Source of the DNA: Baffinella frigidus
Lineage: Eukaryota > Cryptophyceae > Cryptomonadales > Baffinellaceae
DNA: 20,083 nt
Assembly (NCBI GenBank): GCA_026770585.1
Contig: MU646681.1
Coordinates: 108,721-128,803, forward strand
Direction: 5' to 3'
The notes under the pieces are model-generated. The model had not been told where the DNA came from. It searched no databases and worked only from the letters and a program-made list of their open reading frames with translations. Positions 4,353 to 20,083 of the stretch are shown here, piece by piece. The first letter of the stretch is position 1. Each line of letters begins with the position of its first letter. The translations under genes and the position numbers were made by a program.

Positions 4353-4929
4353 ACTGACTGCAGGTGGGAACGGGGTTCAGTTGTCTGCGCTGCTGGTCTG
4401 CCTGCCCCTCCTGCCCCTCCTGCCCCCTCTGGAACGGAATTCCCCCAGCCTGATGCTCCCCGCCACCCCGCCCCGGCGGCCCGGCAGCGAACCGGCGCTG
4501 CCTGGTCGCCAGGGGGGACCATCCCGCCCACGAATCGCAGCGAGACTGCCGCCGAGACAGTCCCAGTCGAGCATCTGGCCAGCCTGACGCACGCTTCCCC
4601 GCCACTGACTCGATCACGCCTGGAATGAGCTGTCCCGCTGGCCCGCCGCGCCCCCGGCCGCGCCCAAAGCACATCCGAACAGACACGGGCAACGACATAA
4701 TGAGCGCCCGCAAGAAGTCTCCAACCCATCCCGCCCATCCTCCAAGCAGCCCCGCCGGACCTGGCGCACGCACCTGACCTGAGAGTGCTGCAAGAACACG
4801 AGCTGGAAAAAAGGCTTTTACTACTATTGTATTTTTGGTCAACGATTTTAAGTGCATTTTTGACTTAAAGCGGCGAACCGCCTTGTAACGTGACCAAAAT
4901 GGCTCCAGGAAAATCCGAGGATTCGGCGC
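4353..4929. promoter_or_regulatory. Divergent promoter region shared by RPS7 and MEPCE
   Basis: This 577-bp gap separates the ATG of RPS7 (minus) from the proposed ATG of the methyltransferase (plus). Most of it is GC-rich, but about 4806-4866 is a marked AT-rich island (TACTATTGTATTTTTGG and TTTAAGTGCATTTTTGAC). That island is also kept in the inverted copy at about 6826-6886, as expected for core promoter or 5'-UTR sequence. No canonical TATA box position can be assigned. Promoter function is inferred from position. Confidence 0.55.
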
Positions 4930-5172
4930 ATGGCGAAGAAATCGCGGAAGGTAAAGGAGGAGGAGGAGGCGGGGGAGAGCAAGGACGGCAACGCCACACG
5001 CGAAGGGGCAGGAACTGACGACGCAGGTTCGGATATGGACTCGGCGGTCGCGGAGTCGCCGAGGGGGGGCGGCAAGGAGAAGGGGGGGCGCAAGCGCAAG
5101 GACTCGGTGCAGGAGGAAGGTGCAGGGGGCGAGAAGCGCAAGAGCACCCGCGGGGAGGCCAAGAAGGAGGTG
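4646..5172 (+). repeat. Left arm of a large inverted duplication
   Basis: This arm, covering promoter, 5' leader and first exon of the methyltransferase gene, is repeated in inverse orientation at about 6358-7038. Agreement is visible from the CCCCCGGCCGCG block near 4650, through the AT-rich island and CAAAATGGCTCCAGGAAAAT, to the exon end AAGAAGGAG. The arms are separated by about 1.2 kb containing exon 2. The right arm is longer because of an inserted small element and length changes in GC-rich tracts. Confidence 0.9.
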
Positions 5173-7590
5173 ACCTCTCACCACCGTGGACATTGTTTTT
5201 TCTCTTTTTGGTGCCCCCCTGATGCCTTGGCACAACCACCGAACATGCCACAGAAGGCGCATGCGCGAGTAACTCACAAAAACATTTTCCTTCCCAGGGC
5301 AACGAGGAGGAGCAACTTCGTTCCCCCAGAGAGCGACGCCCCTCCTCGAACGACGCCGCCCCGGAAGCCGGCGGTCGCAAGCGCCCCCGCGTAGATCCTC
5401 CCCCCTCTGGCTCGGAGGATCCGATCACACCCCGCGGAAAGCGCGAATCCCCGAGGACGAAGCAGGACACTTCTCCCCACGAGAGGAAGTCTTCCGTGAC
5501 GACGCCACGTGGCAGCCGCTCCGAGCATCACCCGGCTCCGGACAGTGGCGGCAAGTCGCAGCCGTCCGCGGAGCAGAGCAAAACCGGCAAAGTCCCGCCG
5601 CCTCCACAAACCGCGTCCAGCGCAGGAGGCTCGGCGGGGCTTGGGGGCGACGCGTCGGGAGGGGGGGGGGGGGCGGGGGGCGCGGTGAGGGGACTGGAGC
5701 CGCCGCGGCGCGTGCAGAAGAACCCTGGCTTCCTTGAGGTGTCGCTCTGCCTTTCGTGGATTGACGAACTAACTATTCGAATGTTGATGTTGTACTATTC
5801 GAAAGTTGATGTTGTGGGTTCGTGGTACGAATCCAGCAACTTTTTTGGGGGGGAAGAGCACGATTTCGCCTGGTTGGTGAGACCGAATCAGACCGATAGA
5901 GAGGTTGATGGTGTTTCTACGGAGCTCGGTGGACCCCAGGATATCGGAATTCGGGCAGGGGAACTCCGACACTATTACTTCCAGTCTATTTGGTATCACC
6001 AATTTGGCGAGGCTGGACTCTTTTCCGCTCCAAAGTTGACGGATTTGTACCACACATCCAGCATGTCAACTGAAGAATAGTCAGCCAACGAGACTGAGGC
6101 AGAGCTAGACACTGTGCCCCGATACAGCAGAGGAAGTAAGCTGTTCCCTACCCGACGTGAACCAAATCGGGTTGGATCCGTTTTTTTTTCACCGGGGGTA
6201 AACTTCCGAGTGTATCGTCTATCTATTCACCCCCGTAGAAAATCCCTAGGCCCCTAGAGATTTGCTTCCATAGGGTCCTGGCATCCAAACAAATCGCCCC
6301 ACTACCCGGATTTGATTCACTTGGGGTGTCTGGTGGGAGGGGAGATCGTCCCCCCCCCCCTCCTTCTTGGCCCGCGGGCGTTGTTGCGCTCCACGCCCCC
6401 TTGACCTTCCTCCTTGACCTTGACCTTCCTCCTTGCGCGTGTGCCCCCCCTTCTCCTTGCCGCCCGCCCTCGGCGACTCAGCCGCCGCCTCCTCCATTTC
6501 CGAACCAGCGTCCTCCGTTCCTGCCACTACCCCTTGGAGGTGGCTCAAATAGTGTTCTGGGGCATTTTTTATTTTCCTTGGATCATGGCCTGACCCGACC
6601 CCGATCCAAGGTGAACTCGAAGACCTTGCAGGGCACTATTTGAGGCACTTGGGATTGCTGGTGGTGCCCCCTCGCCTGGTGTGGCGTTGCCGTCCTTGCT
6701 CTCCCCCGCCTCCTCCTCCTCCTCCTTTACCTTCCGCGATTTCTTCGCCATGCGCCGAATTCCTTGGATTTTCCTGGAGCCATTTTGGTCACGTTACAAG
6801 GCGGTTCGCCGCGTTAAGTCAAAAGTGCACTTGAGATCGTTGACCAAAAATACAATATAGTAGTAAAAGCCTTTTTTCCAGCTCGTGTTCTTGCAGCACT
6901 CTCAGGTCAGGTGCGTGCGCCAGGTCCGGCGGGGCTGCTTGGAGGATGGGCGGGATGGGTTGGAGACTTCTTGCGGGCGCTCATTATGTCGTTGCCCGTG
7001 TCTGTTCGGATGTGCTTTGGCCGCGGCCGGGGGCGTGGAGTTCTCTGAATTCACCTTTAACATAGCCTCTGAACATGGTGGCTCTGGTCGTGATGCGACG
7101 CATCTCATCCGGGTGGGCGTTTAATGTAAATATGTAGGGAATTGGAGCCGTCTGCCTAATTTCCAAAGGAAAAGCTCCAATTCCCGACGGCGACTATTTA
7201 AACCAAAATATCGCCAACATTCAAACAAATCTCGGTGTGATTAAATCTCGGATTCTCTGACTTGTTGAAATACTTGCCGGTATGTGGAATTGAAGGCTTT
7301 CCATGAGAAATGAGGGTGACGGCTCCAATTGGCTATGGCCTGGCAGGAACATAAGGAGCGGTACGCAGCACGGAGGCAGGCCGAGGCCACAGGTTCTGCC
7401 CGCCTCTGCCTCTAAACCCTCAACCCTCAACCCAAATCTAAACCCCAAACCCTCAACCCTCAACCCTACACCCTAAACCCTGAACGCTAAACCCTAAACC
7501 TCAAAAACGTGCTATGTGCTCAACAAAGCCTCCTGTCCCCCACAACCCCTGAACCCTGCATCCTGAACCCTGCATCCTGAACCATGAACC

Positions 7591-7622
<32 letters not shown>

Positions 7623-10600
7623 ACCCCCCAACCCACAACCCCTCAACCCTGACCTGCAGGGAGTAATATGCGTTGAATCGGATCGCACCCAACAAGGCCA
7701 CTATATGTTCCCTCCCGAACCCTGAACGCGGCACCCTCAACCCTGCATACGAACCCCCCAGAAATCTTGCACCCTCAACCCTCACCCCTCACCCCTCACC
7801 CCTCACCCCCCACCCCTCACCCCTCTACCCTCAACTCTCCACCCTCCACCCTCCACCCTCAACCCTCAACCTTAACAAAGGAACCGCAAGCGTTCTGGGC
7901 AAACCGAAACGGAAGTTCCTCGACGGAAACTACGACACCTACTACAACTACCGCAACCCTGGCGCGGCTGACGACCCCCGTCTTGAGGTTCCAACCCAAA
8001 CCCAGACCTATAATTTTATTATGCATGGTTTATAACCCCTAACCCCTAGACCCTGAACACGAAACCATAAATAACTCCTTTCCCCTAAACCCTGAACACG
8101 AAACCCAACACCATAAACCATAAACCTAGGGTTGAGAGTTTGGGGTGTAGGGGGTTGGATACTTATTCCAACTACCGGAACCCTGGCGCCGCTGACGACC
8201 CTCGCCTCGAGGTTTCTACACCTAGGGTTTGGGGTGAAGGGTTTGTATACGTGCTACAAGCAGCGAATGCACCTAGGGTTTGGGGTTTGGGGTTTGGGGT
8301 GTAGGGTTTGGATACCTGCTACAAGTAGTTGATAAACTTAGGGTTGAGGGTTGAATGTTGAGGGTTGAGGGTTGAGGGAACTACGATACGTATTCCAACT
8401 ACCGGAATCCTGGCGCCGCTGACGACCCTCGCCTTGAGGTGAACCCTAAACCCTCAATCCTAAATCCTAAACTCTAAACCCTAATCCCTAGACTCTAAAC
8501 CCTAGACCCTAGACCCTAGACCCTTACCCCTTGACCCTAAACCCTAAACCCTAGACCCTAATCCCTAATCCCTAAACCAGGCTCTGAATTCTACACCTTA
8601 TCCCTTAACCCCTAACACCTGGAACCTCAGGCTCTGAGCTCTAAACCATGTACTCTAACCCCTAACCCCGAACCCCTAACCCCGAACCCCTAACCCCTGG
8701 CCCCTAACCCCTAAACCCCAACCCCTGAATACTAAACCCTGAGCCTTGGACCCTCAGGTGTTTGAGGAGGCGTGGTTCCAGGGCAAGCGGGCGCTCGACA
8801 TCGGATGCAACTCCGGCTCCGTCACTATGGTGCGCCCTCAACCCTACACCCTAGACCCTGCACCCTAGACTTTACACCCTAGACCCTACACCCTAGACCC
8901 TGCACCCTAGACTCTTCACCCTAGACCCTAGACCCTACACCCTAGACCCTAGACCCTGCACCCTAGACCCTACACCCTAGACCCTCTCCCCACCTTACAC
9001 CTTCCGTGCAGCGGGGTGCGCTTTTCTTTGGATGCAGCGGGGGGGGGGTAGGTTGTCAGGTGCATGGTGTAGGGCGCAGGGTGCAGGGTGCAGGGTGCAG
9101 GGTGCAGGGTGCAGGGTGCAGGGTGCAGGGTGCAGGGTGTAGGGTGTAGGGTGTAGGGTGTAGGGTGTAGGGTGTAGGGTGTTGGGGCATTGGTCCCAGG
9201 GCAAGCAGGCGCTCGACATCGGATGCAACTCCGGCGCCGTCACCATGGTGCCTCCTCAACCCGAAACCCTAGACCCTGCACCCTACACCCTACACCCTGC
9301 ACCCTACACCCTACACCCTCTCCTCACCTTACACCTTCACCAACGGGGGGCGCGGGGAGGTTGTAAGGTGTAGGGTGCAGGTTTTAGGATTTTGGGATAT
9401 ACGCATCGGATGCAACTCCGGCTCCGTCACCATGCCCCCCCTCCCCTCTCCTCTAAACTCTAAACCCGAAACCCTAGACCCTCTCCCCACACACCCCATC
9501 CGTGCTGCACCTAAACCCTACACCCTACACCCTACACCCTACACCCTACACCCTACACTCTAAACCATAAACCCTAAACCCCAAACCCATAACCTGCAGG
9601 AGATCGCAGAGCGGTTTAAGCCGCGGCACATTATGGGGTTCGACATCGACAATGCGCTCATCGCCAAAGCCCGCGCCAACCTCCTCACGCGGTCTAGCTC
9701 CCACTAGCCCTCCGAAGTGGACCAAATCGAAAATCTGGCTTTTTGGATTTCAGGCGGGCTTTTGAGCCATTCCCTCCGAATTCGGAGAGCTGCAGACGGG
9801 AAATGGCCCAGCCACTGCCTTGATTTAGTCCCGCTTCGGAGGGCTAGTGGTCTGCCCCAGTTGGGTTGTTCAAGCCGCCGCACATCGTGGGATTCGATGT
9901 TGACGGAGCGCTCATCGCCAAAGTTGATATGCTGGGTGTGCGGTACAAATCCGTCAATTTTGGAGCGGGAAACATCCCGGGCTCACCAAATTGGTGAGCC
10001 GAAAGCAGGCTTTGAGACAGCGCTAGGAAAGAGTGACGCGGCGCTCATCGCCAAACAGTGACGCAGCGCTCATCGCCAAAGCGCGCGCAGACCTCCTCGC
10101 GAGGTGCCCTCATCCGGGCCTAATCCGGGATCATAAATTTAAGGTCCAGGGTTTAGGGTCAGCGAGCAGGTTCGGGCGCCTGCAGCCTAACCCCCAACCT
10201 CTAATCCCAAACCCCCAAACCCCAAACCTTAAACCATAACCCTTGCACCCGAACCCCTGAAGCCTAAAACCCGAGCCCTCAACCCCAAATCGTCACCCCC
10301 CCCCCAAAAAAACCCCCCCTCAACCCTACACCCCAACCAGGGCGTGCCGAGACCCAGCCGCCAAGGATGCCAAACCCTCAGACACAGCGGCCACGGGCGT
10401 TGGGGGGGCAGGAGAATCAGGGGGCAAGGTCAAGAAATCAGACGCAGGGGGGAAGACTGAGGAAGGGGGGGGGAAGGCGGCGGGGGCGGGTGGGGTGAAG
10501 GTGAAGGTGGAGGGGGGGGGGGAGGGAAAGGGGGAGGAGCTGGCGTCTGCGGGTTCGCATAAGGGCACTGAGACGCGGGTACGCTTAGAGAGCGAGCGAG

Positions 10601-12185
10601 AGCGCGAGAGCGAGAGCGAGAGCGAGAGCGAGAGCGTGTGCGAGTGCGAAGGCGAGTGCCCGAGAGAGCGGGAGAGAGCGAGAGCGAGAAAGGGAGAGCG
10701 AGAGAGCGAGCGCGCGCGCGAGAGAGAGAGACAGAGAGCGAGAGCGCGAGAACGCGCGAGGGAGAGAGAGCGAGAGCGAGAGAGCGAGAGCGAGAGAGCG
10801 AGAGCGAGAGAGAGCGAGCGCGAGAGAGAGATCGAGAGAGAGAGCGAGAGCGAAGCAGGAAGCGAGAGAGACAGCGAGAGAGAGAAATGGAGAGCGAGAG
10901 CGGCTTAGCTCTGCCTCACTCGGGTTGACCGACTGTTCTCAAGTCGACATGCTGGGTTCGCGGTACGAATTTGTCAACTTTAGAGCGGGGAAGAGCTCGG
11001 GCACACGAAATTGGTGAGCCCGAATAGACTGGGACAGAGCTAGTACGTGGCCTTTTTGACACCTTGGGGAGAGTCGGCTGGGGTTTGTAGCGGCAACGTT
11101 GCTGTCAAACAGCTAGAAGAAGAGACGGTACAAAAAACGTGATAAGTGGCTTCCTAAATTTCGGCAACCCCTAAAACCTAAACCCTAAACACTAAGCACT
11201 CAACACTAAACGCTATACAGGTTGCGAGGATGGAGGTGGACTGGTCGCGGCTTCCCGACAGTGACAAGCACCCGTACGAAGCCCACTCCCCACACCAGAA
11301 ACCCTAACCCCTAACCCCTAAACCTGAACCCCTGAACCCCAACCCCCAAATCATCACCAGGAAACCTCCCCAACCCCCAAACTCTACCCCCAAACCCTAC
11401 CCCCTACCCCCTAAACCCCAAATCCTAACCCTAAACCCTAAACCCTAAACCCTAAACCCCAAACCCTAAACCCCGAAACTATACCACCCAAACCCTACCA
11501 CCAAACCCTAAACCGTAACCCAGATTCTCGTTCCCGTTCAACTGCTCGTTCAAGAAGGAGGACTACTGCAACGAGGCGGAGATCGACGCGCGCTACGACG
11601 TCATCACCTGCCTCTCCGTCACTAAGGTCAATACTCTTTACCTTTTGCTGTTCAGGCTTCAGGGACTAGGGATCAGGGTTGAGGATTTGTACAAGGTTGG
11701 GGTTTACGGTTGTCACAAAGGTGTTTAGGGTTTTGGGTTTGGAGTTGAGGGGTTGAGGGTTTGGGGTGTGGGGTTTGTACACGGTTGGGGGTTAGGGGTT
11801 AGGGTTTAGGGGTGAGGGTTTAGGTGTGTGGGATGACTAGTGCAATGAAGCGGAGATGGACGCGCGCGTGACGGCGGCATCACCTGCCTCTCCGTCACTA
11901 AGCTACCCCTACCCTAAACCCAACTCCCTTTTGATTTCAAACCGCAAAAAAAACTCGTCCTTTAAAACGTCGAAATGGCATCTTTTTCCCGTGCGACTTC
12001 TGCGCGAATGTTGACAGAGAGCATTTGGCCGTGTGCAGTGCGCTCGACCTCTCTCTCTAGGTTTTGCTCAGACGGAGCCTCGGTGGGGGTGCATGCATGG
12101 CGGCCGTGTTGGTAGTCATGAATATCCCTCCCTCGCTCTCTCTCTTTCTTTCTCTCTTCCCTATCTCTCTCTATCTCTATCTCTA

Positions 12186-12218
<33 letters not shown>

Positions 12219-13300
12219 TTCTATCTCTCTCGCGCGCGCGGTTCTCTCTCGGCATCAGTTGCTTTACAATAAAGGTTTCTCTCGTCCCCGCGTGCACTGG
12301 GTACACTTCAACCCTCAACCCTGGACCCCAAACCCCAAACCCTCGACCCTGAACCACAAACCCTGAACCCTAAATCCTAAACCCCAAACCCCAAACCCTA
12401 AACCCGAAACCCTGAATTGTCAACGGTGAGCAGTGGGTGCACTTCAACCGGGGCGACGAAGGAGTCAAGCTGCTCTTCTCCAAAGTGCACAGGTCGCGCG
12501 CCGAACCCTAACCCTACACCCTAAACCTTTAACCCCAAACCCCAACCCCCGTACCCCAAACCCTAAACCCAAAACCCAAAACCCAAAACCCTAACCCAAA
12601 CCCCAAAACCCTAAACCCTAAACCCTAAACCCCAAACCCTAAACCTTAAACCCTAAACCTTAAAACCCTAAACCCTAAACCCCAACCCTAAACCCTAACC
12701 ACTAAACCCCAAACCCCAAACCCCAAACCCTAAACTCCAACCCCAAACCCTAAATCACAAACCCTAACCACCAATCCCCCCAACCCTAAACCCTAAACCC
12801 TAAACCCCAACCCCGAAACCAGGGCCCTCAAGGAAGGCGGGAGGTTCATCCTGGAGTGGCAGGAATGGGGGTCGTACAAGAAGAAGAAGACGCTGACGCC
12901 GCTCTTCAAGGCCAACTGCGCTGCCATCAAGCTCCACCCGGTACATTTCCCAACTCCCAGACTTTCTGCGGTCTTGCTAAACTGTCAACCTTGGCAGTTG
13001 TTTGATTGTTTTCTTGGCTCACAGACGCAAAAGTGCTGGATTAACGGTCTCCCGTTGCACTCTGCAGCGACGGTTCAAGCAGTACCTACTCGAAGAGGTG
13101 GGGCTCAAGTCGGCGACCCTTACAAAAACGGACCTCACACCCTGAACCAAACCCTAAACCCAAACCCCTAAACCCTAACCCAGGGGCGGTTCAAGGAATA
13201 CCTCCTGAACGAGGTGGGGTTCAAATCGGCAACCGTCCTCACACCGCGCAAGGGGAAGAGCGAAGGCTTCCAGCGCCCGCTCGTTGTCTTCCAGAAGTAG
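4930..13300 (+). CDS. Bin3/MEPCE-type RNA 5'-phosphate methyltransferase, 12-exon model
   Basis: This is a SAM-dependent enzyme of the family that methylates the gamma-phosphate of 7SK or U6 snRNA. Exons: 4930-5169, 5298-5738, 7660-7706 (uncertain), 7891-7987 (start uncertain), 8758-8829, 9600-9691, 10341-10578, 11221-11273, 11524-11626, 12434-12492, 12823-12940 and 13184-13300 (TAG). All junctions are GT-AG and phases join without a break, giving about 558 residues. The N-terminal ~227 residues are charged and disordered. The Bin3 domain shows [12 protein letters not shown], the SAM motif [25 protein letters not shown], a K/G/E-rich insert (exon 7), [47 protein letters not shown] and [11 protein letters not shown]. 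The usual LEPQPW motif reads LEWQEW. The start at 4930 is chosen because its frame runs through exon 2; an ATG at 4899 is out of frame. Nuclear location is inferred from the family. Confidence 0.92.
5802..6108. mobile_element. Family B repeat element, inverted pair
   Basis: The left half begins AAAGTTGATGTTGTGGGTTC and includes GGTACGAATCC, AGCAACTTTT and TGGTTGGTGAGACCGAATC. The inverse of the same set appears at about 5988-6070 (CCAATTTGGCGAGGCTGG, TTTCCGCTCCAAAGTTGAC, GGATTTGTACCACACATCC). A GAGACTGAGGCAGAGCTAG end follows at about 6090-6108. Single copies of the family occur at 9923-10034 and 10941-11047. No coding capacity is seen. Confidence 0.7.
6358..7038 (-). pseudogene. Inverted copy of the MEPCE promoter and first exon
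   Basis: This is the reverse-orientation arm matching 4646-5172. On the minus strand an ATG at 6751 begins [18 protein letters not shown], nearly identical to the true N-terminus. After GNAT the frame enters an inserted 105-bp element (6542-6646), and exon-1 homology then resumes as [20 protein letters not shown]. The AT-rich promoter island is also kept (about 6826-6886). It lacks downstream exons in its own orientation. It might be transcribed antisense to exon 2 of the host gene, but that is inference. Confidence 0.85.
6542..6646. mobile_element. Small inverted-repeat element inside the exon-1 copy
   Basis: The termini are TGGCTCAAATAGTG (from 6541) and CACTATTTGAGGCA (to 6647), inverse of each other with one mismatch. 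The insert interrupts the exon-1 homology of the inverted arm and is absent from the true exon 1, so it arrived after the inverted duplication or was lost from the other arm. A target duplication is not evident. It is about 105 bp and non-coding. Confidence 0.75.
7418..7659 (+). repeat. Telomere-like heptamer tract (CCCTAAA/CCCTCAA)
   Basis: The tract is degenerate tandem CCCTAAA, CCCTCAA and CCCTGCA-type units, C-rich on the sense strand of the host gene. A second tract (CCCTCAC/CCCTCCA) runs at about 7765-7875, just before the Bin3-domain exon, where it doubles as a polypyrimidine tract. The units are imperfect and intronic, so this is not a chromosome end. Confidence 0.85.
8158..8438 (+). 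pseudogene. Tandem copies of the [12 protein letters not shown] exon
   Basis: The real exon ends at 7987. A copy at 8158-8211 encodes [18 protein letters not shown] and keeps a GT donor. Two short fragments of its GATACNTNNTACAA core lie near 8244-8265 and 8311-8330. A further copy at 8379-8438 encodes [12 protein letters not shown] and ADDPRLE and also keeps a donor. The spacers are G-rich heptamers (GGGTTTGGGG, GGGTTGA). No copy has a strong acceptor. The coding bases agree closely with the functional exon, so the duplications are young or constrained. Confidence 0.85.
8439..8757 (+). repeat. Telomere-like heptamer tract before the SAM-motif exon
   Basis: The tract is 319 bp of degenerate CCCTAAA, CCCTAGA, CCCTAAT and CCCCTAA units ending at the acceptor CCCTCAG of the exon starting at 8758. 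C-rich units are on the sense strand. No other feature is seen in it. Confidence 0.85.
8832..9186. repeat. Facing C-rich and G-rich heptamer arrays (potential hairpin)
   Basis: From 8832 to about 8998 the units are CCCTAGA, CCCTACA and CCCTGCA. From about 9057 to 9186 the inverse appears as GGGTGCA and GGGTGTA units, including nine or so near-perfect tandem GGGTGCA copies. The two arms could pair over more than 100 bases in RNA or single-stranded DNA. They lie exactly between two copies of the SAM-motif exon. Confidence 0.85.
9188..9434 (+). pseudogene. Tandem copies of the SAM-motif exon (LDIGCNSG)
   Basis: The functional exon is 8758-8829. A copy at 9188-9247 encodes [19 protein letters not shown] and keeps a GT donor; an internal AG at 9198-9199 would make 9200-9247 a 48-nt, phase-0 cassette. 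A second copy at 9404-9434 keeps only [10 protein letters not shown] and has lost its donor (CCCCCC follows ATG). Heptamer tracts of both orientations separate the copies (C-rich 9250-9326, G-rich about 9346-9385). The first copy is a plausible alternative exon; the second looks dead. Confidence 0.82.
9447..9598 (+). repeat. Telomere-like heptamer tract before the GFDID exon
   Basis: CCCTACA repeats (six in near-perfect tandem at about 9512-9555) and CCCTAAA variants end in the acceptor AACCTGCAG of the exon starting at 9600. Confidence 0.8.
9701..9850. mobile_element. 150-bp inverted-repeat (MITE-like) element
   Basis: The left end is CCACTAGCCCTCCGAAGTGG followed by ACCAAATC. The right end is GATTTAGTCCCG followed by CTTCGGAGGGCTAGTGG, the inverse with few mismatches over about 28 bp. 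It starts nine bases after the donor of the exon ending at 9691 and has no coding capacity. No clear target duplication is visible. This family differs from families A and B. Confidence 0.85.
9866..10103 (+). pseudogene. Interrupted copy of the [13 protein letters not shown] exon
   Basis: The functional exon is 9600-9691. A copy at 9866-9922 ([18 protein letters not shown]) is interrupted by a family B element (9923-10034). Homology resumes at 10035-10055 and again at 10060-10080, both repeating GACGC-GCGCTCATCGCCAAA, then continues as ARADLLAR to a donor at 10104. Frame and donor of the right part are intact, and its leftover bases AG fit the downstream exon phase. Confidence 0.82.
9923..10034 (+). 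mobile_element. Family B element inserted in an exon copy
   Basis: It begins GTTGATATGCTGGGTGTGCG, contains GGTACAAATCCGTCAATTTT and a 21-base near-perfect palindrome GGCTCACC-AAATT-GGTGAGCC (9980-10000), and ends near GAGACAGCGCTAG. It is flanked by 21-bp direct repeats (9902-9922 and 10035-10055) drawn from the exon copy, which look like an insertion-associated duplication. Confidence 0.75.
10588..10908 (+). repeat. GAGAGCGAGAGC purine tract
   Basis: About 320 bp of GAGAGC/GAGAGA units start nine bases after the donor of the exon ending at 10578. The tract is purine-only on the sense strand apart from scattered C. It reads as an open Arg/Glu/Ser frame, but the preceding GT donor and the family alignment place it in the intron. 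Confidence 0.85.
10941..11047 (+). mobile_element. Family B element, single copy
   Basis: It runs from AAGTCGACATGCTGGGTTCG through GGTACGAATTTGTCAACTTT and GAGCGGGGAAGAGCTCGGG to GGGACAGAGCTAG. It matches the copy at 9923-10034 along its whole length with scattered changes and lies in the same gene, in the next intron but in the same orientation. Confidence 0.75.
11831..11902 (+). pseudogene. Decayed copy of the [11 protein letters not shown] exon
   Basis: The functional exon is 11524-11626. This copy starts near GGATGACTAGTGCAATGAAG and ends with ACCTGCCTCTCCGTCACTAAG. It carries frame-disrupting changes around its CGCGCGTGACGGCGGC stretch, and the donor is lost (CTACCCC follows). The spacer is a G-rich TTTAGGG/TTGAGGG tract (about 11690-11825), opposite in orientation to the rest of the intron tracts. 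Confidence 0.8.
12125..12245 (+). repeat. CTCTCT pyrimidine tract
   Basis: About 120 bp of CTCTCT/CTATCT units lie in the intron before the WVHFN exon. A 50-bp segment just upstream (about 12070-12120, with GCATGGCGGCCGTGTTG) is repeated in inverse orientation at about 13930-13980, again next to a CT tract, so the two belong to one dispersed repeat. Confidence 0.75.
12295..12313 (+). pseudogene. Fragment copy of the WVHFN exon
   Basis: CACTGGGTACACTTCAACC repeats the first bases of the functional exon at 12434-12492 (TGGGTGCACTTCAACC) and then passes into CCCTCAA heptamers. It is too short to be an exon. It shows that exon fragments also occur upstream of their source. Confidence 0.6.
12501..12820 (+). 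repeat. Telomere-like heptamer tract, longest uninterrupted
   Basis: About 320 bp of CCCTAAA, CCCCAAA and CCCAAAA units fill almost the whole intron between exons 12434-12492 and 12823-12940, leaving only a few bases for the donor (GTCGCG) and the acceptor (GAAACCAG). Confidence 0.9.
13068..13145 (+). CDS. Alternative or decayed terminal exon of MEPCE
   Basis: It is a partial copy of the final exon (13184-13300). A good acceptor (GTTGCACTCTGCAG) precedes an in-phase frame [17 protein letters not shown], ending TDLTP and a TGA at 13143-13145. It parallels [17 protein letters not shown] of the main terminal exon but lacks the conserved GFQRP-VVFQK tail. If spliced to the exon ending at 12940 it would give a shorter C-terminus; the missing tail suggests a non-functional or regulatory product. 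It could be duplication debris only. Confidence 0.45.
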   Translation, partial: RRFKQYLLEEVGLKSATLTKTDLTP

Positions 13301-13404
13301 GCGCGTGCTCCTCTCGTAGCCTCGAGGATGTTAAGACTAGCACAGCGCTGTCCTGTTCAGGGAGCACGGAATCTTTCCGCGAAAAGACGCTCGCGCACCC
13401 CCCT

Positions 13405-13599
13405 CTTGAAAGGCGCTGCCATCACCCTCCACCCGGGACGCATCCTAAGGAGAGTGCGGTTTTGTGGGTGTGCAATGAACCGGGCGTCAAATCGGTGTGG
13501 GTGTGCAATGGACCGGGCGTCAAGTCGGCAACGGTTCTCACGCCGCGCAAGGGCAAGAGCCAAGGGTTCCAGCGCCCCCTCATTGTCTTCCAGAAGTGA
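13405..13599 (+). pseudogene. Downstream decayed copy of the last two MEPCE exons
   Basis: About 13405-13437 repeats the end of the penultimate exon (GCTGCCATCA, CTCCACCCGG). After a 60-bp stretch with a twice-repeated GGGTGTGCAATG-ACCGGGCGTCAA unit, 13519-13599 repeats the last exon as [27 protein letters not shown] and TGA. The exon junction and the RFKEYLL part are lost, so it is not usable as it stands. It lies beyond the functional stop, showing that the duplication extends past the gene end. Confidence 0.85.
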
Positions 13600-14385
13600 T
13601 CCAGAGAAGTGAGAGAACAAGGCGAGAGAGGCGAGAGAGAGAAGCGAGAGAGAGAGAGACCTTCGAGATCCATCCGAGTGCAAAGTCAGGTCCTAGTCTT
13701 CCAGGGCCTCCACTGGAGGGAATGCATCCTGACCAGGTTGGTTTTAATGAACCCACCTAATTCGCCGGTGGATTGTTTGGGAGCTCCCTATCACTATGTA
13801 GGAGTCTCGGGTGGTCGTAGGCGAGGGGTTCTGTATCTGGGTTCCTGTATGCAAGATTCAATTCCCATGCAGCTCCCTGGTCCACAGCCTGTCCCATGTC
13901 GTCAAGTTGTGCAAGAGGCAGAAAGAGACCCTTGTTGATAACAACACGGCCGCCATGCAACCCCCCCGAGGCCGTGTCTCAGCAGGCACGACGAGAGAGA
14001 CCACACCTGAACCCATGTTTACTCTCTCTCTCTCTCGTTCTCTCGCGCTCTTTCTCCCTCTCCCTCTCCCACCCTCTCTGTCTCTCCACATGTAGAAGGT
14101 TGATGCTACCGCTATGGCAGCCTCCCGCCATGTTATGTGCGTTACTCCGTGACGCACAGGAGACGGCACCTACTCAACCCCCGCAATCGCAACTATATGG
14201 TGCATGCTCTCATGCTCTCGTACACGAGGATACCACCTCCAGGATGCCGCCTCCAAGGCCGTTGCTGAGTAGGGACGACGAGAGAGGATATACCTGAACC
14301 GATTTACTCTCTCTCTCTCTCTCTCTCCCTCTCTCCAGGTTCCCGGCATCTCCCACGCGTTACTCACCATCTCACTGCCACCTAC

Positions 14386-14505
14386 AAGGGTACCTCGCTC
14401 ATATCAAAACACCTCCCCCTGGGACCCCACAGTAGGCCTATGCCCAGGGCCCTACGGTGGTCCTAGGGAAGGGGGTGCAGTTTCTTGAGAGCGAGGTACC
14501 CCTGC
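14386..14505. mobile_element. Family A foldback, copy flanked by 24-bp direct repeats
   Basis: The ends are GGGTACCTCGCTCATATC and GAGAGCGAGGTACCCCTGC. It is bordered by direct repeats ACTCACCATCTCACTG-CACCTAC at 14362-14385 and 14506-14529, differing by one base. This is the clearest insertion footprint of the family in the window. Confidence 0.85.
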
Positions 14506-15085: not shown

Positions 15086-15207
15086 ACTACAGGGGTACCT
15101 CGCTCATAAGAAACCGCCTCCTCCTAGGACCCTACCGTAGGGCTATGCCTAGGGCCCTACGGTGGTCCTGAGGGGGGGGGCGGTTGCTTTTGAGCGAGGC
15201 AACCCTT
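15086..15207. mobile_element. Family A foldback, copy near the unknown gene
   Basis: The left end is ACTACAGGGGTACCTCGCTC then ATAAGAAACCGCC. The right end is GGCGGTTGCTTTTGAGCGAG. The inner part contains ACCCTACCGTAGGGC and GGGCCCTACGGTGG, a palindromic core. It is non-coding. Confidence 0.82.
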
Positions 15208-15307
15208 TATTGACTTGTTGTCCAGGCGGGCTATTGGTGAGGACACGCACCCTACGCGGAGTAGCCCTAACCTCCAAACCCGGTAGTGTGTGTGGGGAGA
15301 GGCGTAC

Positions 15308-16523
15308 CGTAGTGTTTGCCGTAGCCGGGAGTGAGCGCGCCGAACCAGCACGCCCGCGAAGGGTCATCGTCCTGGTGTTTTAGGGTTCAGGGTTTAGCGC
15401 GCGCAGCCCTCGTGAAGAAATTCACACGCGGCGCTAGTGAAGAGCTAAGGTTTAGGGTTTGGGGTCAAGGGTCAAGGGTCAAGGGTTCAGGGTTTAGGGT
15501 TTAGGGTTTAGGGTTTAGGGTTTAGGGTTTGGGGTTTAGGGTTTAGGGTTTTGGGTTCAGTGCTTAGGGATTAACGGGAAAGGTCATCATCCTGTGGGCG
15601 AGGGGTTTGGGGTTTGGGTTTGGGGTTTTCCTGGTACAAAGATACAAGGAAAAGCTCAAATCAGTCAACACACCTGGCGCGGAAACGGGGAGCGACCTGG
15701 CACATGTACTGGAGATGGTAGTCGTTGGGCGGGAGGGTGTCGAGTGTCTTGCCCTGGAGCTTGTCCATCGCCGCCCTTTCCAACCTCTGGGGTGTGGGGT
15801 TTGGGGTTTGGGGTTTGGGGTTGAGGGATTGGCGTTTGAACCGTATGAACCGTAAGGGTTTAGGATTTATTAGGGCTTTGGGGTTTATTCGAGCCTGGAC
15901 GTGTTGTGCATCCACAAGGCGTTTGGCACGATTCAGCCCTGGAAGTCCGACATCGTGCTCTTCTTGTGACCCGTATAACCCGTAAGAATTAACGGTTTAT
16001 TCGGGCTTAGAGGGTTATTCGAACCTGGACGTGCTGCGTATCCACGAGGCGTTTGGCACGATTGAGGCCCTGAAAGTCCCACAAAGTGCTCTTCTCGTTG
16101 TAGTAAAAGCACGCCAGCTCCCCCAACTGCGGTTTTGGGATTGCAGTTTAGGACTTTGGGTTTCGGGTTTCGGGTTTCGGGTCCAGGAATTCGGGTTCCG
16201 GATTTCGGGTTTCGGGTTCAGGAATTCGTGTTCAGGGTTTCGGGTTTCAGGATTCGAGTTTCGGGTTTCGAGTTTCGGTTCTAGGGTTTGAGTTTTTGAA
16301 GGGGAGGAAGGATTTGTGCGCCGCACGCCCTCTGCTCTTCCTCGTTCTAATCACGTGCGCATGAGATACAGAGAGAGAGAGCGCGAGAGAGCGCGAGAGA
16401 GACAGAGAGAGACAGAGAGAGACAGAGAGAGACAGCGAGAGCGAGAGCGAGAGCGAGAGAGAGCGAGACAGACAGACAGACAGAGACATACATACAGAGA
16501 CGGACAGAGAGAGAGAGAAAGAA

Positions 16524-16554
<31 letters not shown>

Positions 16555-16633
16555 GACATAGAGAGAACTGTGCGCCGCACACCCGCTGCTCTTCCACGTT
16601 CCAGTCGCGCGCGCACGAGATACAGAGAGAGCA

Positions 16634-16665
<32 letters not shown>

Positions 16666-16679
16666 CGAGATGGAGAGAG

Positions 16680-16724
<45 letters not shown>

Positions 16725-19700
16725 TACAGAGAGAGAGAGAGAGACCTGAGCGCCGCACGCCCTCTGCGCGTCCACGTTCCAATCACGCGCGCACGACCAC
16801 ACCCCATACTGCCCCGCCGGCGTGCCCTGCGTGGGGTGTAGGGTTTCAGCGTTTAGGAAGCAATACACCGTACAACTTCGCCCTGGACCTTGAACCCTAC
16901 ACCCTGTGCCACCGCAGGGTTTGGGGCTTAGGGTTTCTGGAGTGTATCTTCTACTTTGTGTGGTTAGTGCCCAGATCCCCCAGAGGGGTTAGGGGTTGGG
17001 GTTCAGGCTTCAGGCTTCAGGGTCTCACGACCACACCCCATACTGCCCCGCCGGCGTGCCCTGTTCCACCGCAGGGTTTAGTGTGCAGGGTACATGGTAT
17101 GGTTCAGGAGTGTGGTTTGGGGTTGGGGTTTATGGTATGGTTTATGGTATGGTCTATGTGTTAGGGTTTCGGGCTTGGGGGTTAGGGTTTTGTGGTTTAG
17201 TGAGTGGGGTTCAAGGTCAAGGGTTTCAGGTCCACACCCCGTACTGCCCTGGCGGCGTGCCCTGCGTGAGGTTTGGGGTTCAGGGTTTCGGGCTAAGGTT
17301 TGTGGTTTGTGGTTTGTGGTTTGGGGTTCAGCCACAGCCGCGATATACGGTTCCGGGTTTCAAGTTCCGGGGTTTGAGTTCCGAATTTCGGGTTCCGGGA
17401 ATTCTGGTTCGGGGTTCCGGATTTCGGGTTTCGGGTTCGGGGTTCTGGATTTCGGGTTCTTGGTTCCGGGAATACCTGCACGTGCACCGTTTCGGGGTTC
17501 GGGTTTCGGGTTTCGGGTTTCGGGTTCCGGGAATACATCCAAGCGGCGCGCGCCGAGCCCCCCCAGTGAAGGCGGAGCCTTGCGCGTTTCGGGTTCGGCA
17601 TTTCGGGTTCCGGGTCCCGGGTCTCAGGTGCCGGGTTTTGGGAAGAAACCTCCATGCGGCGCGCGCCCAACCCCCCCGTGACTGCGGAGCCTTGCCCCTC
17701 GAGCTTGTTCATGTCGACCCAAGATGCTTGCATGTTGCACCCCGAAGTCCCCACTCCGAACTCCTGTGTTTCGGGTTTTGGGTTTCGGGGTTCAGGTTTC
17801 AGGTTTCGGGGTTCAGGTTTCGGGTTTCGGGTTTCGGGTTTGGGTTTCTAGGATTTTTTAATTATGTTAAGGTTTAGTATTTACTGGTTAGTGTTTCGTG
17901 TTTAGTATTTAGTGTTTAGTGTTTAGTTTTGAGGGTTCAGGGATAGTGGTTTAGGGTTTAGTGTTGAGATGTTTGGGCCTCGGGGATTTAACCTCGACGG
18001 ACCATTCGGCCTCAAACCTGAGCGCCTTGTTTCGTGTTTCGGGTTGTACGGTTTCATCATTTCGGGTTTCGGGTCCGGGTTTCGGTTTTCGAGTTTGACC
18101 TCGACGGACCACTCGGCCTCAAACTTGAGCGCCTTGCGGCACACGGCGTCGCACGGCCCACGCACACCCTCCGAAATCTGTTTTATTTGTGGGGTTCAGG
18201 GACACACGATTTGTACCAGGAGAGGAATCCACAATAGATGTATAGACGAACAAAACAACAAGTATAGCCATGTGGTGGTACAAAGCCAACCCCCCCCTCC
18301 GATATCTGCCCCAGGGTTTCGGGTTTCAGGTTTCAGGTTTCGGGTTCAGGGTTTGGGGTCTGGAACGATTCCATTTAGGGATTGGGGTTTCGGGTTCCGC
18401 GTGTAGGGTTCAGGACGGTTGCGGGCTGCAGGTTGAGGGTCTAGGGGTGCAGGGTTGAGGGTGTGGTGTTGGACGATACCAGCGTGATTGAGACGAGGCC
18501 GAAGGATCGCTCTCCGGAGGCAGCGTTGGGAACAGGGGCGGTGACCTTCTTCGGCACCTCGATGTCTGCTCTCGAAACCCTAACCCCTAGAGTGTGGGGG
18601 TTCGTGAAACCCTAAACCCTAAGGTTAAGGGGTTCTAAGACACAGATACCAGGGACAGGTTTCGGGTTTGGGGTTTCGGACGGTTTCGGATACCAGCGTG
18701 ATCGAGACGAGGCCGAACGAACGCTCTCCAAAGGCAGCGCTCGGGACGGGGGCGCTGAGCCTCTGCGGCACCTCGCAGTCTGGTCTCGAAACCCTACACC
18801 CCATACGGGACGTACTCCCGCATCTCCCGAACCTGAGACCAAACCCCCAAACCCCTTACCAGCGTGATCGAGACGAGGCCGAAGGAGCGCTCTCCGAAGG
18901 AAGCGCTCGGGACGGGGGCGGTGAGCTTCTTGGGCACCTCGCAGTTCGAGTCCAGCACCTCCGTCAGCGCCTGGTGTGGGGGGTGTTTAGTGTTGAGTGT
19001 TTATTATTTAGTGTTTAGTGTTTTAGTGTTTTAGGGATGCGGGTTTATGGTTTATGTTTCTAGGTTTCTAGGTTTGTAGGGTTCAGGGCGTGAGGGATGA
19101 GGGTGAAGGAGGCAGAGTTCGGGACGGGGGAGGTGAGCTTCTTCGACACCTCACAGTTCGAGTCCAGCACCTCCGTGAGCGCCTGGGAGGTCTGGCGAGT
19201 TACGGTTTTGGGCTTCGTAATTTGAGGACTACAGGGGTACCTCGCTCATGAGACCCCCCCCCATCGTAGGACCCTACAGCAGGGCTATGCATAGGGCCCT
19301 ATGGGGGTCCTGGGGGGGGGGGCAGTTTCTTATGAGCGAGGTACCCCTGTACGGTTTGGAGGTTTTGGGGTGTACGGGTTGGGCCAGTGGACGGCACCTC
19401 GGACTGGGGTTCAAGTTTTCATGGTTGGAGGTTAGGGGTTACACACCTCACTCGCGGAACCCGGCGCCGCGCCGTGGAACAACACGATCACACTCGAGTT
19501 CAGCGGAAGCCCGAGCTTCGTGACGGCCAGTGAGAGGAGGAGGGAGGGGTGGAGCGCCAGGGGGGCGGAGGTTAGGGGAGGAACCCCCAACCACTAACCC
19601 CTAAACATAAACCCCAACTCCCGACCCCCAACCCGTACACCCCAACCCCGCGTTTTCGGGTGATGCACCTCAGACGCAGACCCCGGCGTCGCGCCGTGAA

Positions 19701-19846
19701 ACGAGACGATGACACTCGAATTCGGCGGGAGCCCGAGCTTCGTGACGGTCAGCGTCAGGAGGAGCGACGGGTGGAGCGCCAGGGGGGCGCCGGGCGCGGG
19801 GGCGGCGATGGCACCCGAGGCCATGCCGCGCAGCCATGAAGAGCAC
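15308..19846 (-). CDS. Unrecognised spliced gene, eight consecutive exons (partial)
   Basis: Minus-strand exons: 19846-19669, 18970-18860, 18177-18100, 17763-17650, 16826-16746, 16126-16025, 15786-15697 (or 15674) and 15371-15308. Each has AG before and GT after, and the frame stays open; all internal junctions are phase 0. Product landmarks in order: [175 protein letters not shown]. No signal peptide or transmembrane segment can be claimed. The 5' end lies right of 19846, probably outside the window; the 3' end is not found. I recognise no family. The regular phase and duplicated exons support a real gene. Confidence 0.65.
15371..15580 (-). repeat. Telomere-like tract in the unknown gene (TTTAGGG on plus strand)
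   Basis: The plus strand reads GGGTTTAGGGTTTAGGG and variants, most regular at about 15488-15552. On the minus-strand gene this is sense CCCTAAA, the same polarity relative to transcription as in the other two genes. A short copy of the exon start (sense GATGATGACCTTTCCCG, about 15600-15584) sits at its upstream edge. Confidence 0.85.
15905..15977 (-). pseudogene. Decayed copy of the unknown-gene exon [14 protein letters not shown]
   Basis: The sense strand retains [10 protein letters not shown] and then, after a one-base loss that creates [15 protein letters not shown]. The functional exon is 16126-16025. Surrounding motifs (CGTATAACCCGTAAG and GGTTTATTCGAGC) are also repeated. Confidence 0.8.
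16140..16290 (-). repeat. CCCGAAA-type heptamer tract
   Basis: The plus strand reads TTTCGGG, TTCCGGA and TTCAGGA units, i.e. CCCGAAA on the sense strand. The same variant dominates at about 17340-17530, 17580-17640 and 17767-17850. It replaces the CCCTAAA unit of the other genes, so variant composition is intron- or gene-specific. Confidence 0.8.
16313..16745 (-). repeat. GA/CT tracts separated by copies of the DWNVD exon end
   Basis: Plus-strand GAGAGA/CAGAGA tracts at about 16365-16562, 16621-16668 and 16670-16745 are interleaved with copies of the 3' half of the exon at 16826-16746. One copy is at about 16620-16567 (sense [16 protein letters not shown]), another at about 16365-16313 (degenerate, with an in-frame stop). 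The functional exon ends CAG and its donor is GTCTCTCTC, so the CT tract begins inside the donor. The first copy has lost the donor G. Confidence 0.82.
17023..17271 (-). pseudogene. Two 5'-end copies of the [10 protein letters not shown] exon
   Basis: At about 17271-17232 the sense strand reads acceptor CTCACGCAG then [10 protein letters not shown] and a stop. At about 17077-17023 it reads [11 protein letters not shown] and a stop after GAACAG. The intact exon starts at 16826. Only the 5' half was copied here, while only the 3' half was copied on the other side of the exon (16313-16620). Confidence 0.8.
17528..17583 (-). pseudogene. Decayed copy of the [10 protein letters not shown] exon end
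   Basis: The sense strand GCAAGGCTCCGCCTTCACTG with GGCGCGCGCCGC and GGATGTATTC repeats the 3' part of the exon at 17763-17650 ([14 protein letters not shown]) with a length change in the G run that breaks the frame. It lies immediately downstream of the source exon. Confidence 0.72.
17994..18031 (-). pseudogene. 5'-truncated copy of the [12 protein letters not shown] exon
   Basis: The sense strand encodes [11 protein letters not shown] and is followed by GTTAAATC, so donor and frame are intact while the 5' half and acceptor are missing. The functional exon is 18177-18100. Confidence 0.78.
18480..18787 (-). pseudogene. Two downstream copies of the [18 protein letters not shown] exon
   Basis: Copies at about 18787-18690 ([20 protein letters not shown]) and 18580-18480 ([20 protein letters not shown]) both continue FGLVSITL and keep a GTATC donor. 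Both lack the first ~8 codons and the acceptor and are preceded by CCCTAAA-type sequence. The intact exon is 18970-18860. Frames are open, so coding decay is slight. Confidence 0.85.
19107..19183 (-). pseudogene. Upstream, 3'-truncated copy of the [12 protein letters not shown] exon
   Basis: The sense strand has an acceptor (ACCTCCCAG) then [26 protein letters not shown], after which homology stops before GERSFGLV and no donor remains. Together with the two downstream copies this makes four versions of one exon in about 700 bp. Confidence 0.83.
19228..19350. mobile_element. Family A foldback in an intron of the unknown gene
   Basis: The left end is ACTACAGGGGTACCTCGCTC and the right end is TTTCTTATGAGCGAGGTACC then CCTGTAC. 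Long C and G runs sit inside each end, and the core contains GCAGGGCTATGCATAGGGCC. It lies in the intron between the exons starting at 19846 and 18970. Confidence 0.85.
19447..19560 (-). pseudogene. 5'-truncated copy of the LALHPSLLL exon
   Basis: The sense strand encodes [39 protein letters not shown] and keeps a GT donor at 19446. The acceptor and first ~20 codons of the functional exon (19846-19669) are missing, replaced by heptamer-like sequence. The frame is fully open. Confidence 0.83.
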
Positions 19847-19926
19847 CTGTTTGCGGTTAAGATGTTGGATTTAGCGTGTGGGGTGTGAGGGTTGGGAGGT
19901 ATGGGTTAGGGTGTAGGGTTCGGTCG

Positions 19927-20027: not shown

Positions 20028-20083
20028 CTGCCACTGAGCCATGTCGCGGACCTGGCGGCGGCGGGGGGGGGGGGGGGGGGTTT

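Follow-up and report, generated by a model that had tools for sequence, protein, structure and literature searches.

Partial copies of exon edges in the introns of a putative MEPCE/Bin3 methyltransferase gene of Baffinella frigidus

How do pieces of exons come to lie in the introns of the same gene, beside the exons that they resemble? This question is raised by a plus-strand gene in the nuclear genome of Baffinella frigidus, an Arctic cryptophyte alga. In the 20,083-nt stretch of DNA that was analysed (hereafter, the window), a first-pass annotation had described such pieces as copies made by many local events, exon by exon, and not by a single segmental duplication. The positions of the copies relative to their exons, the sequences in the gaps between them, and the substitutions that they carry may provide a clue to their origin.

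The gene and its exon copies

By its domain matches, the plus-strand gene is a predicted MEPCE/Bin3 methyltransferase, a class defined by the capping of a small nuclear RNA. In the profile search, the protein matches the Bin3 Pfam domain PF06859 over the whole profile (1–109; E = 3.6e-37), and PF08242, PF13649 and other SAM-binding methyltransferase domains are found N-terminal to the Bin3 part. The gene has 11 exons (Table 1), and the nine-exon set of the Bin3 region is open; the first base of exon 3 is placed to within a few nucleotides. The NCBI model P0001 uses the functional version at all seven exons checked, while exon 7 is missing from it and the linker is in another frame.

Direct copies of the MEPCE exons came up when the masked window was compared with itself by BLAST, and no hits of any kind were obtained in 20 local shuffles; thus, the copies are real, as had been described. 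In the search of each exon against the locus, six of the 11 exons were found to have direct copies at a distance of 2.5 kb or less, and the number is seven when the 20-nt copy of the WVHFN exon (exon 9; expected 0.00 by chance in 100 shuffles) is counted. The copy of exon 10 is additional to those described before. An origin of the block of exon 10 and exon 11 copies from spliced RNA was considered; the bases on the 3′ side of the exon 10 copy fit a mutated donor and the next exon equally well. All of the copies are partial, and their number is one or two per exon, with one copy split in three pieces, so that the earlier count of one to four was too high. The insert that splits this copy, that of exon 5, has GCGCTCATCGCCAAA repeats on its flanks. 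The same orientation, said to hold always, does hold for the seven copied exons: the exception is exon 1, which is duplicated in inverted orientation along with its promoter. In the exon search, the inverted copy of exon 1 lies in pieces within 6360–6751. The four inverted pieces found in the exon search represent one event at exons 1–2. The view that many local events took place exon by exon is supported by these results.

Table 1. Positions of the exons, copies and gaps in the window
Feature	Position	Strand	Remarks
Terminal exon of eS7 and its decayed tandem copies	1432–2005	−	self-BLAST and exon search; family PF01251
Inverted duplication of MEPCE promoter and exon 1	4646–7038	+	arms 4646–4954 and 6727–7038, 97%
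MEPCE exon 1 (N-terminal, low complexity)	4930–5169	+	ORF, GT donor
MEPCE exon 2	5298–5738	+	AG/GT borders; phase of join to exon 3 uncertain
MEPCE exon 3, functional (NYDTYYNYR)	7883–7987	+	final 21 codons identical to NCBI protein P0001
Exon 3 downstream copy 1, 3′ part and GT	8158–8211	+	83% over 54 nt, reaches exon end; 8S:1N
Exon 3 downstream copy 2, 3′ part and GT	8379–8438	+	85% over 60 nt; 9S:1N
MEPCE exon 4, functional (ALDIGCNSG)	8758–8829	+	exact in P0001
Gap, exon 4 to first copy	8830–9190	+	C-rich then G-rich heptamers forming a palindrome
Exon 4 downstream copy 1, donor present	9191–9247	+	93%; intron side 22/24 also homologous
Exon 4 downstream copy 2, donor lost	9404–9434	+	97% over 31 nt; CC replaces GT
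MEPCE exon 5, functional (MGFDID)	9600–9691	+	codons 9600–9689 exact in P0001
Gap, exon 5 to copy: element whose ends are inverted, CCCTCCGAAG..CTTCGGAGGG	9692–9867	+	inverted pair 9701–9728/9822–9850
Exon 5 downstream copy with GT	9868–10103	+	pieces 9868–9923, 10041–10055, 10066–10101
MEPCE exon 6 (linker)	10341–10578	+	no copy found in copy search
MEPCE exon 7	11221–11273	+	no copy found in copy search
MEPCE exon 8, functional	11524–11626	+	exact in P0001
Exon 8 downstream copy	11831–11902	+	86% over 72 nt; stop codon, indel; CT replaces GT donor
Exon 9 start (WVHFN), upstream copy	12294–12313	+	20 nt, 2 mismatches; acceptor AG changed to AC
MEPCE exon 9, functional (WVHFN)	12434–12492	+	exact in P0001
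MEPCE exon 10, functional	12823–12940	+	exact in P0001
Exon 11 upstream copy, 5′ part	13071–13118	+	81% over 48 nt; AG kept
MEPCE exon 11, functional, terminal	13184–13300	+	exact in P0001
Exon 10 end, copy beyond exon 11	13413–13436	+	expected 0.00 in 100 shuffles; 13413–13435 in exon search
Exon 11 downstream copy, 3′ part	13520–13597	+	88% over 78 nt; own stop codon follows
Exon-like block of a minus-strand gene, in four versions	18477–19186	−	self-BLAST
Exon-like block of a minus-strand gene, in two versions	19436–19789	−	84% over 132 nt, self-BLAST

The copying had been treated as a matter of a single gene, which is not supported: MEPCE is not special, and exon copies are also found in the CCT genes, a NEK-like kinase and eS7. 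Among the CCT genes, three of the nine exons found by the family search have adjoining copies. When the CCT1 gene was read whole, copies were found beside 5 of its 18 exons, and all seven local direct repeats touch exons, which account for 28% of the unmasked DNA. The NEK-like kinase has at least four different versions of one exon over one stretch. Within the window, two further genes carry repeats like those of MEPCE, which the first-pass annotation had overlooked. Local direct repeats also occur in all nine random regions of the genome that have sequence letters; this count is not taken as evidence of exon copies, because many of the repeats are mobile elements.

Positions, gaps and substitutions of the copies

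The exon-against-locus search provided 28 direct pieces, all within the 2.5 kb looked at. One feature of these pieces is the side on which they occur: upstream copies represent the 5′ edge of the exon and downstream copies the 3′ edge, and 24 of the 28 pieces obey this rule. Of the 9 upstream pieces, 8 begin no more than 6 nt from the first base of the exon; of the 19 downstream pieces, 16 stop no more than 6 nt from its last base. The rule is broken by two pieces of the split copy of MEPCE exon 5, by an inner piece in CCT1, and by the eS7 piece, for which the exon border is placed approximately. No piece is a whole exon (0/28), and the length is at least 23 nt in 27 pieces and 15 nt in the remaining one, with pieces shorter than those found escaping such a search.

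Another feature is the position at which the homology ends. For 23 copies, the identity is 88% on the exon side, while it is 35% at bases 7–30 of the intron side, as compared with a background of 26%. The homology ends at the splice site, with the intron side at background, in 20 of 26 copies; two are borderline and four show clear intron-side homology. (The CCT1 exon 9 copy, with an earlier intron-side value of 13/24, is left out of the 26, as its acceptor could not be placed.) Those with clear homology are copy 1 of MEPCE exon 4, the CCT1 exon 10 copy (21/24, a CT microsatellite), and both copies of the CCT exon on C6 (18/24 and 20/24). Thus, three of the seven CCT copies run into the intron, which matches the prediction of plain tandem duplication. 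Among the eight youngest of the 23 copies (23–24 of 24 exon bases identical), the intron side is at background in seven and borderline in the eighth (12/24 bases, the threshold being 11). The GT or AG is retained in 21 of the 26 copies. The possibility that the inner, truncated ends are hidden splice sites is not supported: AG precedes 0 of 17 such ends, and GT follows 2 of 10. The copies differ in age, and a weak trend is seen for older copies to lie farther from the exon (11 concordant and 4 discordant; permutation p = 0.086).

The gaps between the exons and their copies vary: several of the 25 are palindromic and others are not. A tendency of the gaps toward palindromes or flipped heptamers becomes clear only on pooling the genes: the median palindrome z is 2.5 in the gaps (n = 25) and 0.1 in copy-free intron pieces (n = 23; p = 0.003), and 7 of 25 gaps contain three or more G-type heptamers, as compared with 1 of 23 control intron pieces (p = 0.03). 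The palindrome excess is not significant gene by gene (MEPCE, p = 0.14; NEK, 0.08; CCT1, 0.21) or for MEPCE and CCT1 combined (p = 0.06). In the gap between MEPCE exon 4 and its first copy, the palindrome z is 57, and 21 C-type and 17 G-type heptamers are found. The palindromic gaps fit break repair without proving it. Only a few families of elements were seen in the small sample analysed.

As for the substitutions, the differences of the copies lean modestly toward synonymous ones. The non-synonymous share is 42–46% with all copies, as compared with the 54–60% expected for copies born dead, and it is 35% in a narrower set, without one CCT copy rich in non-synonymous differences and with less of the exon 10 copy included. 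Synonymous differences number 8 in 18 codons in a MEPCE exon 3 copy and 4 in 11 codons in a CCT1 copy.

Possible origins of the copies

The explanation that we prefer, tentatively and with less than even confidence, is that recurrent insertion or repair at splice junctions duplicates the edge of an exon, and that selection keeps one intact exon. Foreign or fold-back DNA, such as palindromic elements or telomere-like heptamer arrays, would be inserted or synthesised at an exon–intron junction, and a stretch of the exon edge, tens of nucleotides long, would be duplicated during the insertion. The edge still joined to the exon body would then acquire a new intron flank, while the second edge would be left within the intron with the old splice dinucleotide. 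The side rule would hold because an event survives only when a complete exon that can be spliced remains. MEPCE would run on a single intact exon set, and the intronic copies would be fossils of exon edges. We infer that splice junctions are the sites of the breaks, as would be expected of introns cut or inserted as mobile elements; the duplication would be the product of repair synthesis, and the copies are probably not used. In favour of this explanation are the side rule, the end of the homology at the splice site in most copies, the retained GT or AG, the pooled excess of palindromes and G-type heptamers in the gaps, and the contact of all local direct repeats of CCT1 with exons. Several observations stand against it: four copies carry intron homology and two are borderline, the palindrome signal needs pooling, the non-synonymous shortage is not explained by it on its own, the trend of distance with age is weak, and no enzyme or active element has been identified for it. 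The wider version is doubtful: across the Baffinella genome, splice junctions would be opened or broken, their repair would both duplicate the edge of the exon and add fold-back DNA, and introns would grow outward from exons as a layered fossil record of the past synonymous states of the exon.

Plain tandem duplication is nearly as likely as insertion or repair at splice junctions. Here, ordinary short duplications (by slippage, unequal exchange or template switching) would have their breakpoints in the exon and the neighbouring intron, selection would remove the cases that break exons, and fast intron turnover would wipe out the duplicated intron flank. Selection alone suffices for the side rule, all 28 direct pieces are local within the 2.5-kb search span, and clear intron homology is present in 4 of 26 copies, including both at the CCT exon on C6; cases hidden by splicing are described in Drosophila in the available text of PMC2891723. 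However, the intron flanks of seven of the eight youngest copies are at background, with the eighth borderline, and the pooled gaps are more palindromic than the controls. Unequal exchange between heptamers, suggested in the first-pass annotation, is not supported as the full cause: no piece is a whole exon, although whole-exon copies might have been purged by selection, and one of the breakpoints falls within the exon, which has no heptamer there. Such whole-exon exchange is disfavoured, as is haplotype mis-assembly.

An improbable origin is from diverged alleles of a very diverse or hybrid population, by unequal exchange or interhomologue break repair. The copies would therefore have diverged as coding sequence before being copied, in agreement with a non-synonymous share below that expected, and allelic introns would be the source of the unrelated intron flanks. 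Against this, the synonymous differences in the exon 3 and CCT1 copies would require extreme allelic diversity, a second MEPCE locus was not found in a genome much of which reads N, and the P0001 cluster has one member. Still less probable is the use of the copies as alternative exons or splice decoys maintained by selection: the non-synonymous shortage and the retained splice dinucleotides agree with it, but the truncated ends lie away from splice sites, the exon 8 copy has a stop codon and an indel, and P0001 has the functional version of the seven checked exons. An assembly artefact, in which a short-read assembler set two haplotypes or overlapping contig ends side by side, is equally remote. 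The published assembly is an Illumina-only ALLPATHS-LG assembly with scaffolds, according to the available text of PMC9756366, and a mis-joining of haplotypes had been raised earlier as a trivial cause. Nevertheless, the window is without any N, the copies are cut inside exons at one end and reach the splice site at the other, and both the four or more versions of the NEK exon stretch and the decayed MEPCE exon 8 copy argue against such a cause.

A paralogue as the source of the copies was also considered and rejected. When the Baffinella genome was searched at the protein level, 17 matches were obtained, of which 13 lie in the contig of the window (E ≤ 0.065) and the other four, elsewhere, are weak (E ≥ 0.1), within a search limited by the sequence, 11 of 20 sampled regions being wholly N. 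Scans of the viral collection found no relative.

Significance and comparison with known systems

These copies bear on two open questions: how introns grow, and whether events at the DNA level recognise splice-site positions. In a genome with repeated copying of exon edges, often with one end at the splice site, the growth of introns could be read directly from the sequence. Annotators should also be wary, as gene models may be misled by copies of exons whose splice sites are intact; the NCBI model of MEPCE, with its missing exon 7 and its linker in another frame, may be a case in point.

Pseudo-exons and partial exon duplications are non-functional copies of exons in introns, known as single copies in single genes. 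In Baffinella, by contrast, seven of the 11 MEPCE exons and several genes are affected. Introners, the intron-forming DNA elements described in the available text of PMC9860276, resemble the Baffinella copies in being inserted close to or at splice sites, with direct repeats, and at many loci; their ends are often inverted, and several of the Baffinella gaps are palindromic and others not. Their target repeats are 3–9 bp long, however, whereas the Baffinella exon pieces are at least 23 nt long, with the one 15-nt exception; in addition, the latter have one end at a splice site that already exists, and the inserts vary between gaps. Neither "Baffinella" nor "Crypto" appears in the available main text of that paper. 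In the tandem exonic duplication of Drosophila, as far as the available text of PMC2891723 describes it, duplicated exonic sequence likewise lies in an intron and is masked by splicing, but the duplication spans a proto-splice site and gives rise to a new intron, whereas the Baffinella copies sit in existing introns, their homology mostly ends at the junction, and events are repeated at one exon. Finally, the spliceosomal twin introns with terminal inverted repeats (PMC12403724) share with the Baffinella copies the events at donor sites, the inverted repeats and the nested introns, while the duplication of the exon edge, seen in Baffinella, is not reported in the available text of that paper.

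Local exon copies in MEPCE and other genes

When the masked window was compared with itself by BLAST, 70 repeat pairs appeared, many of them mobile elements, as against none in 20 shuffled sequences. In an exon-against-locus search of four genes, 14 of the 39 exons had a direct copy within 2.5 kb, 28 pieces in all: 6 of 11 exons in MEPCE (11 pieces), 5 of 18 in CCT1 (6 pieces), 2 of 3 in the NEK-like kinase gene (10 pieces), and 1 of 7 in eS7 (1 piece). A copy of MEPCE exon 9, from a separate search, raises that gene to 7 of 11. The exon copies are real, and MEPCE carries partial local copies of most of its exons, as the first-pass annotation had claimed for the Bin3-domain exons; its picture of a peculiarity of one gene did not hold, since copies also occur in CCT genes, the NEK-like kinase gene and eS7. 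The genes with copies lie on four contigs (C373, which contains the window, C245, C94 and C6). The four inverted matches all came from a single inverted duplication at MEPCE exons 1-2.

The genes were chosen in different ways. MEPCE was given, and eS7 adjoins it. The CCT genes were picked by a family search blind to copies: direct copies were found at 3 of the 9 matched exons on contigs C94, C6 and C39 (regions L041, L048 and L043), and the other six had none at the matched exon; a tenth match, on contig C1202, was left out of this count. CCT1 (C94) was fetched whole once its copies were known, so that 5/18 is not a blind count, and its exons were delimited with a human protein sequence as guide. 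The NEK-like gene is a biased example, because its random region, L035, was chosen for its visible repeats; a further NEK block there, in at least three versions by eye, is outside the counts. Eleven of the 20 sampled 10-kb regions (L019-L038) were wholly N, in single blocks, which makes paralogue absence in this genome copy unreliable.

Joined together, the nine exons of the Bin3 region in the plus-strand MEPCE gene give an open frame of 318 codons; the codons at the start of exon 3 and the link of that exon to exon 2 are uncertain. Its translation has matches to Pfam Bin3 (PF06859, E = 3.6e-37) and to methyltransferase domains. Among 79 proteins found, its best match is the NCBI "Bicoid-interacting protein 3-domain-containing protein, partial [Baffinella frigidus]", to stretches of which seven window exon translations are identical, letter for letter. 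This places the window in the cryptophyte Baffinella frigidus or a very close relative; it spans positions 108721-128803 of contig C373 in a 382-Mb assembly. That protein lacks exon 7 and has the linker in a different frame; the frame used here is backed by two relatives, P0002 and P0053 (SLLPDSDAEPFAFPYNC, SLPDPDADPFAFPYNC). The minus-strand neighbour eS7 matches PF01251 (E = 4e-69), and the pieces tried of a second minus-strand neighbour gave no Pfam match.

Positions of features in the window and in region L035
Feature	Region	Positions
Inverted duplication (97%) of MEPCE promoter and exon 1 start; weaker inverted matches within	window	4646-4954 / 6727-7038
Region of MEPCE linker	window	10268-10578
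MEPCE exon 7	window	11221-11273
Minus-strand gene, no Pfam match to the pieces tried; several exon-like blocks in two- to four-fold versions	window	15640-20083
Palindromic element family (GGGGTACCTCGCTCATAAGAAAC...), both arms inverted	window	203-331, 603-677, 780-834, 14381-14504, 15086-15209, 19228-19351
Second element family	window	5981-6107, 9921-10000, 10906-11032
Second element family, between exon and its copy	L035	6442-6565, 7181-7303
Further NEK block	L035	~5800-5280
Pieces with 18 identical bases flanking a palindrome	L035	9751-9768, 9899-9916

Boundaries and divergence of the copies

Pieces upstream of the functional exon start within 6 nt of the exon start in 8 of 9 cases, and downstream pieces end within 6 nt of the exon end in 16 of 19. 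Those that depart from this are the eS7 piece, an inner piece of CCT1, and two of the three into which an insert splits the MEPCE exon 5 copy. None of the 28 pieces spans an entire exon. Selection that preserves one intact exon is enough to account for this side rule.

At the junction, identity to the functional exon over 24 exon-side bases (16 for one short copy) is 88% in 23 copies, of which 16 are downstream and 7 upstream, while intron bases 7-30 show 35% identity versus 26% in unrelated flanks. A GT stands directly after 12 of the 16 downstream copies, and an AG directly before 6 of the 7 upstream ones. Intron-side scores exceeded the 95% background threshold (11) in four copies: MEPCE exon 4 copy 1 (22), the CCT1 exon 10 copy (21; CT microsatellite in both flanks) and two others (12 each). 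The eight youngest (23-24 of 24 exon bases) comprise seven at background and one borderline. Three copies were added: in both at the C6 CCT exon the homology continues into the intron (scores 18 and 20), in that from L041 it does not (7), and all three keep their splice dinucleotide (21 of 26 overall). Seven pieces are outside this test: two from the exon 5 copy, the end of exon 11, which is a stop codon, a NEK piece adjoining a palindrome, the inner piece of CCT1, the copy of CCT1 exon 9, for which no acceptor position could be assigned, and the eS7 piece.

With every distinct codon variant entered a single time, the differences in 28 copies from 14 exons came to 64.8 synonymous and 35.2 non-synonymous; when the L041 copy and a longer exon 10 copy were included (29 copies), the ratio was 66.7:47.3 or 71.7:60.3, depending on the mismatch penalty. 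The non-synonymous share is 35% (28 copies) or 42-46% (29), versus 54-60% expected if a copy next to a constrained exon were non-functional from the outset (p = 4e-7 to 0.03 over settings, with variants treated as independent although strictly they are not). The substitution comparison proposed in the first-pass annotation thus yields a modest deficit of non-synonymous differences, most marked in NEK exon H and MEPCE exon 3 and not seen in MEPCE exons 8 and 10 and CCT L041. An origin of the copies from diverged alleles would explain it, and error-prone repair with errors filtered in the functional exon might do so; that the copies are used is less likely. Decay ranges from NEK exon V copy 1, which is identical, to the MEPCE exon 8 copy, broken by a stop and an indel. 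Of 15 pairs, 11 were concordant for distance and divergence (permutation p = 0.086), which only suggests an outward age order with older copies farther out.

Material between exon versions

The gaps separating one version of an exon from the next (n = 25) were more palindromic than 18 copy-free CCT1 and MEPCE intron pieces, one intron being left out for N (median z 2.5 vs 0.25, p = 0.003). They also fold more stably (p = 0.004), and at least three G-type (telomere-like) heptamers occurred in 7 of 25 gaps versus 0 of 18 controls. With five NEK pieces added to the controls (n = 23), palindromy gave p = 0.003 and the heptamer count was 7/25 versus 1/23 (p = 0.03). The palindrome signal is weaker when split (MEPCE with CCT1, p = 0.06; MEPCE, 0.14; NEK, 0.08; CCT1, 0.21), and the six CCT1 gaps contain no G-type heptamers. 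In one NEK gap, the palindrome lies between two pieces sharing 18 identical bases, like a target duplication, and the MEPCE exon 5 copy holds an insert with GCGCTCATCGCCAAA on its flanks. Local direct repeats touch exons in 7 of 7 cases in CCT1 (exons, 28% of unmasked DNA), 10 of 14 in MEPCE (the remainder being three copy-to-copy pairs and one element) and 12 of 32 in NEK (the remainder being copy-to-copy pairs, elements and some unexplained).

The GGGGTACCTCGCTCATAAGAAAC element family is seemingly also present, by translation, in regions L020 and L033. Intron heptamers of MEPCE and CCT1 are mostly C-rich on the sense strand (CCCTAAA type); judged from sequence, their CTAAA or CTAAC with a pyrimidine tract could be candidate branch points.

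Origin of the copies and known systems

The copies are local, direct, partial and one-sided; the homology of most is confined to the exon, and many are separated by palindromic or flipped material. Heptamer-mediated unequal exchange, suggested in the first-pass annotation, predicts intron breakpoints on both sides, whereas the 28 pieces have one end within the exon. The trivial cause raised in that annotation, mis-joined haplotypes, is unlikely, as is mis-assembly generally, because the window is free of N, one NEK exon stretch exists in at least four versions and one copy is decayed; the published CCMP2293 assembly (Illumina ALLPATHS-LG) is given as 534.5 Mb in 10,880 scaffolds with BUSCO 72.3% (PMC9756366).

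Plain tandem duplication and splice-junction-anchored events stand nearly level as candidate causes. Intron sequence would be expected in a random tandem duplication that crosses the boundary, which makes a homology stop at the splice site unexpected; yet intron flanks are at background in 20 of 26 copies, with two borderline. The four with clear homology (MEPCE 1/9, NEK 0/10, CCT genes 3/7) favour plain duplication, and the CCT cases show that it also happens. Under splice-junction anchoring, a break or insertion at the junction would be followed by repair synthesis involving fold-back or a template switch, or by insertion of an intron-like element; the exon edge would be duplicated, and events leaving one intact exon would survive.

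Exon-edge copying is a real phenomenon, wider than MEPCE, its gene of discovery. Among the papers listed from a limited literature collection, none described exon-edge copies or heptamer introns in cryptophytes. Although not assignable to any of them on the features tested, the Baffinella copy pattern is similar to three systems: introners, with target repeats of 3-9 bp (PMC9860276), tandem exonic duplication as an intron source in Drosophila (PMC2891723), and the twin introns with inverted repeats of fungi (PMC12403724).
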